Shown: positions 2,600 to 61,813 of the stretch, in pieces | Layout: each line of letters opens with the position of its first letter | How positions within the stretch are numbered: the stretch's first letter is position 1 | Translations under genes and position numbers: made by a program | Assembly (NCBI GenBank): GCA_003161615.1 | Contig: PMOB01000019.1 | Coordinates: 209,716 to 273,715, forward strand | Direction: 5' to 3' | Source of the DNA: Actinomycetota bacterium | GTDB taxonomy: Bacteria > Actinomycetota > Thermoleophilia > Gaiellales > Gaiellaceae | DNA: 64,000 bases | The notes under the pieces: generated by a model | Databases searched by the model: none | What the model was told of the DNA's origin: nothing | What the model saw: only the letters and a program-made list of their open reading frames with translations

Positions 2600-2606
2600 T
2601 ACGATA
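2600..2606. promoter_or_regulatory. Shared -10-like element of the divergent tmk / epimerase pair
   Basis: The heptamer TACGATA reads as TACGAT on the plus strand (8 nt before the ATG at 2614) and TATCGT on the minus strand (9 nt before the GTG at 2591). If both act as -10 boxes, both mRNAs are leaderless or nearly so. The two promoters could then not be occupied by polymerase at the same time. No -35 consensus is evident. Confidence 0.55.
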
Positions 2607-2613
2607 AGCCGCC

Positions 2614-3501
2614 ATGCGGGCGATCGTCACCGGCGGTGCCGGGTTCATCGGCTCCCACCTCGTCGATGCGCTCCTCGAGCGCGGCGACGACGTCCACGTG
2701 GTGGACGACCTCTCGACGGGGCGGCGCGAGAACGTAGCGGAGGCGGAGCTGCACGAGCTCGACGTCCGGTCCTCGCTGGTCGAGCTTTTCGAGGACGTCC
2801 GGCCGGAGATCTGCTTCCACCTCGCGGCGCAGGCGGACGTCGTCACCTCGGTCGACCGTCCCGCCTTCGACGCCGCGGTCAACGTCGTCGGCACCGTCCG
2901 CGTGCTCGAGGCCGCGGAGTGCCGCGTCATCTTCAGCTCGACCGGCGGCGCGATCTACGGCGAGTGTGAGCGGCCCGCGCGGGAGGACGATCCGCGCCGC
3001 CCGGTCTCGCCGTACGGCACGGCGAAGCTCGCCGGCGAGGAGTACCTCGCGACGTGGAACCGGCTCTCCGCAGGCGAGCACGTCGCCTGCCGTCTCGGCA
3101 ATGTCTACGGGCCGCGGCAGCAGCCGATGCTCGAGGGCGGCGTCGTCGCGATCTTCCTCGACCGGATGCGGGCTGGAGCCGAGACGGAGATCTTCGGCGA
3201 CGGCGAGCAGACGCGCGACTTCGTCTATGTCGGCGACGTCGTCGAGGCGCTGCTCGCCGCGGCCGGCTCGAGCGCGGCCGGCGTCTACAACGTCGGCACG
3301 GGCGCCGAGACGAGCGTCCTCGAGCTACACCGTCTTTGCGCGGTGACGGCCGGCGCCGGCGACGAGCCGCGCTTTGCAGCCGAGCGCCCGGGCGACATTC
3401 GGCGCAGCGTCCTCGATCCGGGCCTCGCGCAGCGCGAGTTGGGCTGGCGCGCGAAGACGGCGCTCGCGGAGGGGCTCGCTCTCACCTGGGCGGCCGGCTA
3501 G
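2614..3501 (+). CDS. NAD-dependent sugar epimerase/dehydratase (GalE-like SDR)
   Basis: A 295-residue extended short-chain dehydrogenase. The Rossmann motif GGAGFIGS is at residues 7-14. Catalytic S109/T110 and Y134-x-x-x-K138 (in SPYGTAKLAGEEY) are present, and NVYGPRQ plus FGDGEQTRDFVYVGDV are typical of UDP-glucose 4-epimerase-like enzymes. The substrate is unassigned, most plausibly a UDP-hexose. It is divergent from tmk with a likely leaderless start and is followed 37 bp later by a LytR_C membrane protein. It may serve the envelope-sugar pathways that dominate the right half of the window. Confidence 0.85.
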   Translation: MRAIVTGGAGFIGSHLVDALLERGDDVHVVDDLSTGRRENVAEAELHELDVRSSLVELFEDVRPEICFHLAAQADVVTSVDRPAFDAAVNVVGTVRVLEAAECRVIFSSTGGAIYGECERPAREDDPRRPVSPYGTAKLAGEEYLATWNRLSAGEHVACRLGNVYGPRQQPMLEGGVVAIFLDRMRAGAETEIFGDGEQTRDFVYVGDVVEALLAAAGSSAAGVYNVGTGAETSVLELHRLCAVTAGAGDEPRFAAERPGDIRRSVLDPGLAQRELGWRAKTALAEGLALTWAAG

Positions 3502-54587: not shown

Positions 54588-56510
54588 TCACGGCGATCCC
54601 GCCTGGAGAGTCGGTTCGAGTGGGTTGAGCAGCCGCGCTTCGTCGAGTTCCCGCCTCGCCTGGAGGATCTGACCGCGCCGAACGTCGAGCGACGCGGCGT
54701 CTGCCCACAGGAACCAGTAGTCGTGTGAACGGCGAATCGCGTCGCCTAGATACGTGCGCGCCTCTGCGTTGAGTCCTTCCTGCTCGTCGATGAGCCCCAG
54801 CTGGAGATACGCGGACGAAGCCCAAGGCTCGACCTCCTTCGCCGCGAGCGCCTCGGACTTCGCGCGGGCGAGATTCCCGTTCGCGTCGGCTGTCCGGCTG
54901 TGCGCGAGGTGGAGCCCGGCGGCGAGAATCACGATCTGGGGGACGATTGCCGCCACGGCCAGTAGGGCGAGCAGCGGCCGCCCGAGCTCGAAGCGTCCCC
55001 ACGGGACCGCGCGACTCGACGGCAGCGCGCCGAGCGTGAGACCGAGGGCGCCGACGCCGACCATTGCGATGCCCGACAGCTGCCAGACCCAGTCGTAGGC
55101 CGCCGCGGCGAAGAAGGCGATGCCGCAGGCGGCCAGCCCCGCGATCGTCGGGCTGCGCAGGAGGAGAGACGCCCGCACGGCCCCGGCGACGGCGACCAGC
55201 ACGGCGGCGGCGAGGAGCAGCAGGCCGATGATTCCCAGCTCCCCGAGTGTCTCGAGGTAGAGGGAGTGGGCGTACTGGGAGTAGAGGCCGATCGGGCGGT
55301 GCTCGAGCCACCAGTACAGGTACGACCCCGCGCCACCGCCGTTGAGCGGGTGGGCACGGAACTGCGATACGGCGTCCGTCCAGAGCTGCCAGCGGCCGCT
55401 ACCGGAGCTCGAGAGCAGGTGCGAGGTGACGAAGTTGCTCGAGCCGGAGTAGTTCGCCTGCGTCTTGAACTCCTCGAAGCGGCGCACCGGATGGGCGAGG
55501 ACGATGCCCACGAGCACGGCGACGACGAGCACGCCTGCCGTCGCCCAGCCGACGACAGCCCGTGGAGCCGGCAGGCGGCGTCCAAGCTCTGCGATCCCGA
55601 GCCAGACGAGAGCCCCACCGACGGCGATCAGGAACACCGCGAGCGCGGCGACATGGCCCTGGTGGTCGCCGAGCGCCGTGGACATCTGGCCCTCGATCAG
55701 CGCTCGCCGCGAATGGATGAAGAAGACCGCGAGGACGAAGGCGACGCCCGTCAACGCCGTCGCGGCCAGTGCCGTCCAGCGGTTGGACGTCAGAACGAGG
55801 TAGAGGACGATCGCCACCGCCGCCGCGGCGAACGCGCCGCGCGACGAGGTCAGGTACATGTCGGCGGCGATGACGGGCAAGGGCAGCGCTGCGAGCGCGC
55901 TGGCGACCCGGCTCCGGCGCGAGACCATGATCGACAGCAGGAGGGGAAGGGCCAGCGCGGACTCGATCCCGAGCCCGTTCCAATAGCCGAGCGGGAAGCT
56001 CAACCGCACGTAGAGCGGATTGAGGAGCTCCGCCCCGCCGGTCGAGCCGGGGAACGTACTTGGAAAGACGCGGCTCAGGAACGCGACGATCGCGATCCCG
56101 GCCAGGGCGAGCGCGATGCCGCCAACGAGCCACGAGGCCGGCACGAGCCGGCCCAGCGCGATCGCGAGGATCAGCACGGCGACGTAGAGGGAAACCTGGT
56201 TGAACTGCTCGAAGGCGCGCTCCCCGTCCGGTGTCCAGCTCATCGAGAGCAGGATCCACAGCGCGTAAAGCGCGAGTAAAATCGGCGCGGCGACCGCGAG
56301 CCGGCTGATCTGCGCGCGCGCCGTCCAGAGCGTGAGCGCCGCGCCTACCCCGATCAGCCACCAGGCGGCAATAGCGGCGTACGCGCGGGTCGTAGTGGCA
56401 AAACCGCCGTCCGTGTACGAGAGGAGGAAGACGGAGAGGCTGACCGCGAACGCAGCACTCGCGTTACGAACCAACGCAAGCCGGTCTTCCGCCCCCCAAG
56501 TCGCCAACAC
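54588..56510 (-). CDS. O-antigen ligase/polymerase-like membrane protein with TPR-like tail, no. 2
   Basis: 640 residues. About twelve transmembrane helices, a large loop with RRFEEFKTQANYSGSSNFVTSHLLSSSGSGRWQLWTDAV, and NGGGAGSYLYWWLEHRPIGLYSQYAHSLYLETLGELG, the Wzy_C signature with the H-S/N-x-x-L-x-x-x-x-E-x-G motif. The last 110 residues are TPR-like helices (LQLGLIDEQEGLNAEARTYL). Polymerase or ligase of lipid-linked glycans. GTG with TACTGT 8 nt upstream, divergent from the small secreted protein. Confidence 0.9.
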   Translation of the reverse strand: MLATWGAEDRLALVRNASAAFAVSLSVFLLSYTDGGFATTTRAYAAIAAWWLIGVGAALTLWTARAQISRLAVAAPILLALYALWILLSMSWTPDGERAFEQFNQVSLYVAVLILAIALGRLVPASWLVGGIALALAGIAIVAFLSRVFPSTFPGSTGGAELLNPLYVRLSFPLGYWNGLGIESALALPLLLSIMVSRRSRVASALAALPLPVIAADMYLTSSRGAFAAAAVAIVLYLVLTSNRWTALAATALTGVAFVLAVFFIHSRRALIEGQMSTALGDHQGHVAALAVFLIAVGGALVWLGIAELGRRLPAPRAVVGWATAGVLVVAVLVGIVLAHPVRRFEEFKTQANYSGSSNFVTSHLLSSSGSGRWQLWTDAVSQFRAHPLNGGGAGSYLYWWLEHRPIGLYSQYAHSLYLETLGELGIIGLLLLAAAVLVAVAGAVRASLLLRSPTIAGLAACGIAFFAAAAYDWVWQLSGIAMVGVGALGLTLGALPSSRAVPWGRFELGRPLLALLAVAAIVPQIVILAAGLHLAHSRTADANGNLARAKSEALAAKEVEPWASSAYLQLGLIDEQEGLNAEARTYLGDAIRRSHDYWFLWADAASLDVRRGQILQARRELDEARLLNPLEPTLQAGSP

Positions 56511-56517
56511 GGTTGGC

Positions 56518-56524
56518 TACAGTA
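56518..56524. promoter_or_regulatory. Shared -10-like element of a divergent gene pair
   Basis: The heptamer TACAGTA reads as TACAGT on the plus strand (8 nt before the GTG at 56532) and TACTGT on the minus strand (8 nt before the GTG at 56510). Only 21 bp separate the two starts. It repeats the arrangement at 2600-2606. Confidence 0.6.
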
Positions 56525-56531
56525 GCGGTGC

Positions 56532-56999
56532 GTGATTCGCCGCGTGCCGCATCTCGCACTCGCCTTGCTCGCCGTCGCCGCGTTGCTGTCGCCCCCTGCG
56601 CTCGCGAGTGGCGGCAAGCCCAAGAAGCACAAGCATTCGTCGGACTGCGGCACGAGCGCCCTGTGCGTCTACCACGAGCCCAATCCGACCGCGAGCGGCG
56701 GGTACGTGACGGTAGGCGGAAAGGCAGTTCCCCTCTCGGCTGCCCTCGCCGCGGAACTCGCAAAGCTCGGCGGTAAGGATGCACGCGTGCTCCAGGCGAT
56801 CGCGACCTCGCGGACCTTCGGCGCGGCCGGGCGACCGACCACCGGGGCGACGAACGGCCCCGTGAGCTCTCCCGGCGCGCTCCTCGCGGCGCTCGATCTC
56901 GGGCCAGGCCCGATCGCGCTCTTCGCGACGCTCCTTTTGGGAGCGACGGCGTTCGCCGTCGGCCGCGCGCTACGCCGCCGGCGCGCCGGTAACTCCTAG
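56532..56999 (+). CDS. Small secreted, C-terminally membrane-anchored protein
   Basis: 155 residues, no family recognised. An N-terminal signal peptide (HLALALLAVAALLSPPALAS), a Lys/His patch (GGKPKKHKHSSDCG), then a Cys pair (SDCGTSALCVYHEP). A Ser/Pro/Gly linker follows, and a C-terminal helix (PIALFATLLLGATAFAVG) ends in RALRRRRAGNS. It looks like a sorted surface protein without an LPxTG motif. Its last 30 bp overlap the convergent glycosyltransferase gene. Start GTG. Confidence 0.7.
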   Translation: MIRRVPHLALALLAVAALLSPPALASGGKPKKHKHSSDCGTSALCVYHEPNPTASGGYVTVGGKAVPLSAALAAELAKLGGKDARVLQAIATSRTFGAAGRPTTGATNGPVSSPGALLAALDLGPGPIALFATLLLGATAFAVGRALRRRRAGNS

Positions 57000-59875: not shown

Positions 59876-60852
59876 ACGTAGTGCTCTTCGGTGTGGCGGC
59901 GCTCGCGGTCGTGGTCGACCATCATCCGGACGAGCTCGGGGAAGCGGACGGTCGGCTCCCAGCCGAGCTTCTCCTTCGCCTTCGACGCGTCGCCGAGCAG
60001 GAAGTCGACCTCGGCGGGACGGAAGTAGCGCTCGTCGATCTTCACGTAGTCGTTCCAGTCGAGCCCCGCGTAGCCGAACGCCTCGTCGAGGAACTCGCGA
60101 ACGGAGTGCGTCTCGCCGGTCGCCAGGACGTAGTCGTCGGGCTCGTCCGCCTGGAGCATCTGCCAGGCGCCTTGCATGTAGTCGCGCGCGAAACCCCAGT
60201 CGCGCTTCGAGTCGAGGTTCCCGAGCCGCAACTCGTTCTGCTCGCCGCGGAGGATCGCGCCGATCGCGCGCGTCGTCTTGCGCGTCACGAAGGTCGGCCC
60301 GCGCCGCGGCGACTCGTGGTTGAAGAGGATCCCGTTCACCGCGAACATCCCGTACGCCTCGCGATAGTTGCGGGTGATCCAGTAGCCGAAGACCTTCGCG
60401 ACGCCGTACGGGCTGCGCGGATGGAACGGCGTCGTCTCGGTCTGCGGCGTCTCGGCGACCTGGCCGAACATCTCGCTCGAGCCCGCCTCGTAGAAGCGGC
60501 ACTTGAGATCCTCCTCGCGGATCGCGTCGAGCAGCCGCAACGTCCCCATCCCGGTCACGTCGGCGGTGAACTCCGGGACCTGGAAGCTGACGTGGACCTG
60601 GCTCTGCGCGCCGAGGTTGTAGACCTCGTCCGGCCGGATCGTGCGCATCAGCCGGTTGAGGACGGAGCCGTCGGTCAGGTCGCCGAACAGCAGCTCGATG
60701 TCGCCGAAGATGTGGTCGATCCGAGCCGTGTTGAACGAGCTCGACCGCCGGATCATCCCGTAGACCTCGTAGTCCTTCTCGAGAAGAATCTCGGCGAGGT
60801 AGGAGCCGTCCTGGCCGGTGATGCCAGTGATGAACGCTTTCCGCTTCGCCAC
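59872..60852 (-). CDS. gmd: GDP-mannose 4,6-dehydratase
   Basis: 326 residues. [44 protein letters not shown] is the GMD signature (NADP loop G-x-x-G-x-x-G). [38 protein letters not shown] has the catalytic T/S, E and Y-x-x-x-K. It produces GDP-4-keto-6-deoxymannose for GDP-fucose or perosamine. It heads the gmd-rfbA-rfbB-glycosyltransferase unit; its GTG is preceded by TACGGT at 8 nt. Confidence 0.95.
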
Positions 60853-60860
60853 GGCGCCCT

Positions 60861-60866
60861 ACCGTA
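60861..60866 (-). promoter_or_regulatory. -10-like element for the gmd-rfbA-rfbB unit
   Basis: TACGGT on the minus strand, 8 nt before the GTG at 60852, in the 40-bp divergent gap to the fucose synthase gene. Confidence 0.5.
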
Positions 60867-60880
60867 CCGGCCGCGCGGTC

Positions 60881-60886
60881 TACGCT
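60881..60886 (+). promoter_or_regulatory. -10-like element for the GDP-fucose synthase gene
   Basis: TACGCT followed by 6 nt and the ATG at 60893. Confidence 0.5.
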
Positions 60887-60892
60887 TGCGGC

Positions 60893-61813
60893 ATGCGCGT
60901 TTTGGTGACGGGTGGCGGCGGGTTCCTCGGCTCCCACCTGGTCGAGCGGCTGCGGGCAGACGGGAGCGAGCCGTTCGTCGCGCGGCAGGCCGACTACGAC
61001 CTGACGAGCGCCTCGGACGCGGCGCGGCTGTTCGACGACGCGCAGCCGGAGCTCGTCTTCCATCTCGCCGCCGAGGTCGGGGGCATCGGCGCCAATCGCG
61101 CCAATCCCGGCCGCTACTGGTACGCGAATCTGATGATGGGCGCGAACGTCCTCGAGCAGGCGCGGCTCGCCGGCACCGGCAAGGTCGTGCTCACGGGAAC
61201 GGTCTGCGCCTATCCGAAGTTCGCTCCTGTGCCGTTCCGCGAGGACGATCTCTGGGACGGCTATCCCGAGGAGACGAACGCGCCGTACGGCGTCGCGAAG
61301 AAGGCGCTCCTCGTCGGCGCGCAGGCGTACCGCGAGCAGTACGGCACGAACGCGATCTTCCTTCTCCCCGCGAACCTCTACGGGCCGGGCGACAACTTCC
61401 ACGAGACGAACGCCCACGTCATCGCCGACCTGATCCGGAAGATGCACTCCTCGCCCGACGAGGTCGTGCTCTGGGGCGACGGGACGCCGACCCGCGAGTT
61501 CCTCTACGTCGACGACTGCGCCGACGGGCTGCTACTCGCGGCCGAGCGGTATGACGGTGCGGATCCCGTCAACCTCGGCACGGGCAAGGAGATCTCGATC
61601 CGCGAGCTCGCCGAGCTCGTCGCCGAGCTGAGCGGCTTCGAGGGAGAGATCCGCTGGGACTCCTCGATGCCGAATGGCCAGCCACGCCGCAGCCTCGACG
61701 CGTCGCGCGCGAAGGAGCTGTTCGGCTTCGAGGCGAAGACGCCGCTGCGGGAAGGCCTGGAGCGGACTATCGCCTGGTACCGCGAAGCCGCGCCTCAGGC
61801 TGCCGCGCGGTAG
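60893..61813 (+). CDS. fcl: GDP-L-fucose synthase
   Basis: 306 residues. [15 protein letters not shown] cofactor loop; [39 protein letters not shown] and [41 protein letters not shown] are the Fcl/WcaG signatures (catalytic residues in the Y-G-V-A-K segment and the C-A-Y-P loop). It performs epimerisation and reduction of GDP-4-keto-6-deoxymannose to GDP-L-fucose, completing the pathway begun by gmd on the opposite strand. Its end overlaps the convergent GT4 gene by 19 bp. Confidence 0.94.

Follow-up and report, generated by a model that had tools for sequence, protein, structure and literature searches.

Can one seven-base element serve as the promoter of two divergent genes at once? This question is raised by the intergenic site TACAGTA, located in a 64,000-nt stretch of DNA (hereafter the window) from an actinobacterial assembly (a Gaiellales-like Thermoleophilia MAG; 2.32 Mb, 35 contigs, about 69% G+C) between a gene for a Wzy-like ligase and a gene for a small protein (Table 1). 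Read directly from the window, the intergenic layout is CAC (56508-56510) GGTTGGC TACAGTA (56518-56524) GCGGTGC GTG (56532-56534), with each start codon 7 bases from the heptamer and 21 bases between both start codons. The initial annotation had taken the heptamer for a -10 element shared by the two genes, reading TACAGT on one strand and TACTGT on the other exactly 8 nt from each GTG. The letters bear this out, each TANNNT hexamer ending 8 nt from its own GTG on both strands. The divergent pair is real as well, starting at GTG 56510 (-) and GTG 56532 (+), with a Wzy_C match in the ligase, which also gave a weak match, below the cut-off, to TIGR03097 (exosortase-associated O-glycosylation ligase, 1.2e-07). 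The ligase gene sits within a polysaccharide gene cluster, and the nearest named relatives of its product come from Thermoleophilia MAGs. A search of the small protein against Pfam and NCBIfam yielded no match.

Table 1. Features of the TACAGTA site and of the other TANNNTA sites discussed in the window, followed by the heptamers found between the ligase and small-protein genes of the related loci.
Feature	Position or locus	Strand	Evidence or remark
Shared bidirectional -10 (TANNNTA), TACAGTA, predicted	56518..56524	both (TACAGT +, TACTGT -)	direct reading and conservation
Putative -10 hexamer TACAGT, small-protein gene	56518..56523	+	first T at -14 from GTG 56532; within leaderless peak -12..-16
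Putative -10 hexamer TACTGT, wzy-like gene	56519..56524	-	first T at -14 from GTG 56510; within leaderless peak
O-antigen ligase / Wzy-like membrane protein, 640 aa, predicted leaderless	54588..56510	-	Pfam Wzy_C PF04932 1.6e-17
Small protein, 155 aa, undescribed family, predicted leaderless here	56532..56999	+	signal-peptide-like N terminus
Other shared TANNNTA, TACGATA	2600..2606	both	between dTMP kinase and NAD-dependent epimerase
dTMP kinase, 197 aa	2001..2591	-	TIGR00041 4.3e-52
NAD-dependent sugar epimerase/dehydratase	2614..3501	+	NCBIfam galE-like 5.7e-41, below cut-off
TACCGTA, contrast case	60860..60866	minus hexamer TACGGT only	-14 from GTG 60852
TACTGTA (ligase orientation)	window, L068, L069, L071		
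TAGTCTA (ligase orientation)	L070, L072, L073, L076		
TAGTGTA (ligase orientation)	L075, L085		
TACGCTA (ligase orientation)	L078, L083		
TAACGTA (ligase orientation)	L079		
TAGCATA (ligase orientation)	L086		

A TANNNT motif about 12 bp 5' of the start marks leaderless genes in Actinobacteria and Deinococcus-Thermus (Zheng et al. 2011, PMC3160421; PMC12340547). For the window's genome, we ran a motif-blind, home-made coding model, which can misplace starts, on 808 kb and retained 564 well-called genes. The first T of TANNNT was found at -12, -13, -14, -15 and -16 in 61, 40, 20, 17 and 10 of these genes respectively, yielding a total of 148/564 (about a quarter), against about 0.3 per position in a control upstream of internal ATG/GTG codons. 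The peak ends sharply, with none of the 564 genes having the motif at -11, and a search for a conserved -35 upstream of the leaderless genes of this genome found none. The picture was the same in four further genomes from this family or genus. The window's genome is strongly leaderless, with a TANNNT peak 12-16 nt 5' of starts, and TACAGTA falls inside this peak on both sides. It is the usual TANNNT -10 of an actinobacterial genome rich in leaderless genes, with a -11A/-7T core that reads the same on either strand; the exactness of the 8-nt distance, which the initial annotation had stressed, is nothing special given the general range of -12 to -16.

A56519 and T56523 serve both hexamers, -11A and -7T being reciprocally paired across the strands. 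We consider it highly probable that TACAGTA is a single bidirectional -10 core that drives both genes and gives rise to two leaderless mRNAs. Since the key -10 bases -11A and -7T are complementary partners, the housekeeping sigma factor could use it in both orientations: A56519 would act as the plus -11A and its partner as the minus -7T, T56523 would do the reverse, and the outer T56518 and A56524 would each complete one hexamer. A plus-oriented RNA polymerase would start near 56530-56532 and produce, with a leader of 0-2 nt, the mRNA of the small secreted protein; a minus-oriented one would start near 56510-56512 and produce a leaderless mRNA for the ligase. By arithmetic, a polymerase starting 7 bases past the last T would leave 2-nt leaders, with 18 bp between the starts. 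Binding in one direction would exclude binding in the other. The start sites, the activity in both directions, the mutual exclusion and co-expression as the purpose of the pairing are all predicted here from sequence.

We assessed how often such an arrangement would be expected by chance. The window holds a single instance of the exact pattern CAY-N7-TANNNTA-N7-RTG, and 100 dinucleotide shuffles produced none. TANNNTA itself is under-represented over the 64 kb (4 observed vs 9.1 +/- 3.3 expected), which agrees with the low intergenic TpA (observed/expected = 0.54), and any 60-bp stretch is computed to hold it by chance in about 1% of cases. Two of the 4 copies (56518 and 2600) are centred between divergent starts, and a third (60860-60866) is the leaderless -10 of one gene only of a divergent pair. 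That the recurrence is not a matter of chance, as had been suggested, is supported by comparison: in both centred pairs TANNNTA persists from genus to genus and the N bases change, which likewise supports the reading as a shared -10.

For the ligase/small-protein pair, we assembled 18 loci (window included), picked by gene pair and not by motif, which are related and so do not count as independent samples. TANNNTA stands between the two genes in 14/18 of them, with the TA---TA frame held and the middle three bases varying (CTG, GTC, GTG, CGC, ACG and GCA in ligase orientation; Table 1). In L084, ACAGTAGCCT takes its place and consists of two -10s overlapping by TA; L082, L088 and L089 have neither TANNNTA nor TA-overlapping -10s. 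The ligase tree of these loci has long branches, and in 13/14 loci the distance from the first T of TANNNTA to the ligase start is 14-16 nt. At L069, near 2887, no ATG, GTG or TTG is present at the leaderless position of the ligase; a CTG is found at -13, and a CTG start is possible.

On the other side, the window's clade and L079 have a leaderless small gene; in the remaining loci the distance to its start is 19-55 nt, in some cases with a Shine-Dalgarno-like leader, so that leaderlessness on the small-gene side is not universal. The larger distances (32-55 nt in L070, L073, L083 and L086), together with the use of TACCGTA 60860 in one direction only, would suit an explanation in which TACAGTA drives only one gene, the other start being misannotated or distant and the palindrome accidental. 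However, the reverse hexamer is intact in those same four loci, some of which have the Shine-Dalgarno-like leader, and the small protein forms a real conserved family present in 11 genomes, which are precisely the ones that carry the ligase subgroup. We therefore regard promotion of a single gene as very unlikely and retain the reading as a bidirectional -10.

The initial annotation had presented the site at 2600-2606 as an independent recurrence of the same design. The recurrence is genuine insofar as TANNNTA is shared by the dTMP kinase and epimerase genes; the spacing is one base off on one side, with 8 bases to the minus GTG (2591) and 7 to the plus ATG (2614). We probed epimerase relatives with patterns setting TANNNT at -12, -13 or -14, resulting in 19 matches. 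The seventh base, directly following TANNNT, was A in 17/19 of these leaderless relatives, compared with 7-8% of intergenic TANNNT (binomial P about 4e-17, uncorrected for relatedness). In 12 matched genomes, 19-26 bp separate the starts of dTMP kinase and epimerase, and TANNNTA was found in 12/12 of them. The seventh-base A is gone where the kinase is 47 bp (G033) or 444 bp (G022) away, and TANNNTA is kept at kinase distances of about 44 (G030), 72 (G025) and 79 bp (G032); in G024 the two genes are 23 bp apart, yet no match to the probe patterns was obtained.

As judged by this comparative proxy, the symmetric bases are conserved beyond the need of one direction in 14/18 loci of the ligase pair and 17/19 for the 2600 pair, two unrelated gene pairs. 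Bidirectional transcription in bacteria is often seen as a by-product of -10 symmetry; the fact that the symmetry is kept between protein-coding genes across genera argues for function, and since both sites are constrained in evolution they are very likely real bidirectional leaderless promoters. A palindromic and conserved TANNNTA might also be the operator of a regulator, or a mixture of operator and -10, and the base before the second TA is indeed A in every TANNNTA case of the epimerase set. Against this, the middles of the ligase set vary freely, with only the four bases of the two -10s kept, the spacing to the starts fits the range usual for leaderless genes, and TANNNTA recurs in several gene pairs that are unrelated. 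An operator appears extremely improbable in comparison with the promoter reading.

A third conserved TANNNTA pair joins histidine phosphatase and SDR oxidoreductase genes; five genomes have TACGCTA and a sixth has the equivalent of TAGGCTA. In this pair (L200-L205, from G004, G011, G006, G009, G014 and G002), the histidine phosphatase (VTTLLLVRHGETDWNA) is divergent from the SDR oxidoreductase with 7 nt on each side. Within the window, a divergent gmd-like/GDP-L-fucose-synthase-like pair (60852-60893) is leaderless on both sides with separate -10s (ACCGTA at 60861 and TACGCT at 60881); TACCGTA 60860 was rejected as a third shared promoter, because TACGCT at 60881 (-12) serves as a separate -10 for the plus gene (ATG 60893). 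A conserved divergent site of the ANNNTANNNT kind (GAGCCTAACGTTCG) was found at C33:137135 of G000, with relatives in G001, G004, G006, G009 and G011.

We then used a partial genome sample of 2.74 Mb from five genomes, comprising 171 divergent pairs from the window's genome and 202 from the four others. Leaderless TANNNT was present on both sides within the scored range in 41 divergent pairs, against 5 for seven control motifs together. These 41 pairs comprise 4 with TANNNTA (18 bp), 5 with ANNNTANNNT (23 bp) and 32 with separate -10s. The initial annotation had proposed a general promoter type built from TANNNTA and had suggested looking for a centred copy in close divergent pairs; as only 4/41 doubly leaderless pairs have it and not most, a distinct type of that generality is not supported as stated. 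The sample at the TANNNTA register is small, its 4 pairs comparing with 2 for the compositional control ATNNNAT.

The same sample bears on the possibility that two ordinary leaderless promoters simply overlap by tight packing, the heptamer reflecting compaction only. Doubly leaderless pairs do occur at many spacings (offsets -6 to 59), with 32/41 lacking a shared -10, as compaction would have it. However, the two overlapping registers are over-represented, the 18- and 23-bp spacings that follow from -10 symmetry holding 9/41 pairs vs about 1.4 expected from the density of the other spacings (P about 1e-5), and two unrelated pairs have retained the frame through long divergence with the middle bases changing. 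Compaction alone thus seems unlikely, and we favour the shared bidirectional -10.

A whole-genome search with exact spacing returned 47 matches for ANNNTANNNT vs 20 for its control, making it the more widespread close register. TANNNTA with 7/7 spacing exceeded its reversed control only in the window's genus (11 vs 7), with 7 vs 44 elsewhere, against a control that is not TpA-penalised. Since this control is not TpA-matched and the excess is confined to the genus, the search is weak evidence, and it was dropped as proof of a general type. The TANNNTA design recurs and is constrained, yet it represents one register among those of an already known principle rather than a separate promoter type.

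Separately, the position 4 nt ahead of the first T of TANNNT, at which an A would create a reverse -10, seldom holds that base, a weak effect relative to intergenic sequence (9.0% vs 13.4%, P=0.02, five genomes). Selection against accidental symmetry was considered from the frequency of A at -4 (5.2%) and +6 (5.7%) from the first T, the two sites where it would render a promoter bidirectional, in 405 promoters and is not claimed; the scarcity at +6 vanishes against TpA avoidance (6.7% vs 7.8%).

The small protein (L068-L089 and window) stands divergent to a Wzy/O-antigen-ligase-like subgroup. In the alignment, the family has a hydrophobic N terminus, [QV]Y.E..P..GG, often ATS..xGAP, a C-terminal hydrophobic helix and an Arg-rich basic tail. 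Using a profile search, we detected it in 11/61 genomes; the same 11 hold the ligase subgroup (E below 1e-65), which was found in none of the others (Fisher P about 2e-12). The small secreted protein may act as partner to the ligase or as its substrate; if true, this would give the shared promoter a purpose. More broadly, a single symmetric -10 might form the whole regulatory region of conserved divergent pairs in leaderless-rich actinobacteria, with mutually exclusive polymerase binding giving two leaderless mRNAs and coupling the output of two functionally linked proteins, in this case the O-antigen-ligase-like enzyme and the small secreted protein, and with a selected frame able to switch between the 18- and 23-bp registers; we put this forward tentatively, as an idea more likely to be wrong than right. 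The three pairs (wzy/small protein, dTMP kinase/epimerase and histidine phosphatase/SDR) provide minimal natural test objects, each with one -10 and about 21 bp separating the start codons, and with neither a -35 consensus nor leaders. In leaderless genomes, the -10 register alone is enough to predict closely spaced divergent starts.

How does the site compare with known systems? It shares its motif, its position and the lack of a conserved -35 with the leaderless genes of Actinobacteria and Deinococcus-Thermus (PMC3160421; PMC12340547); those works deal with single genes, and a term search of both texts returned no mention of a -10 shared by divergent genes, as proposed for TACAGTA. In the bidirectional promoters of Warman et al. 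2021, as described by the same group in PMC12825309 and PMC10268837, symmetry of the -10 allows RNA polymerase to bind in both directions with -11A and -7T coinciding reciprocally, and 18 bp is the commonest start spacing, 10 and 23 bp also being common. This class is defined by two divergent starts 7-25 bp apart, and 18 bp is predicted for TACAGTA from canonical -10 spacing. TACAGTA thus resembles these promoters in its shared -10, its reciprocal -11A/-7T and its predicted 18-bp starts, and their other preferred distance of 23 bp was also found here. According to these papers, the promoters of Warman et al. were start-mapped in enterobacteria and their second RNA is often non-coding; TACAGTA, unlike them, has protein genes on both sides, both predicted to be leaderless, with 21 bp between start codons, on comparative evidence only.

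Closely juxtaposed divergent promoters are described as common in M. tuberculosis in passages of Cortes et al. 2013 (PMC3898074), where Rv1129c/Rv1130 are both leaderless. This pair is like TACAGTA in being divergent, leaderless on both sides and associated with TANNNT; one common -10 is not mentioned in those passages, and the likeness is not based on sequence spacing. Our search found no paper joining bidirectional -10 symmetry with leaderless divergent genes, a weak absence as most subscription journals lay outside it. TACAGTA is very probably an especially compact case of the known bidirectional bacterial promoters, and what is new is the combination of leaderlessness both ways, minimal spacing and a conserved symmetric frame, together with the gene pair that it joins.
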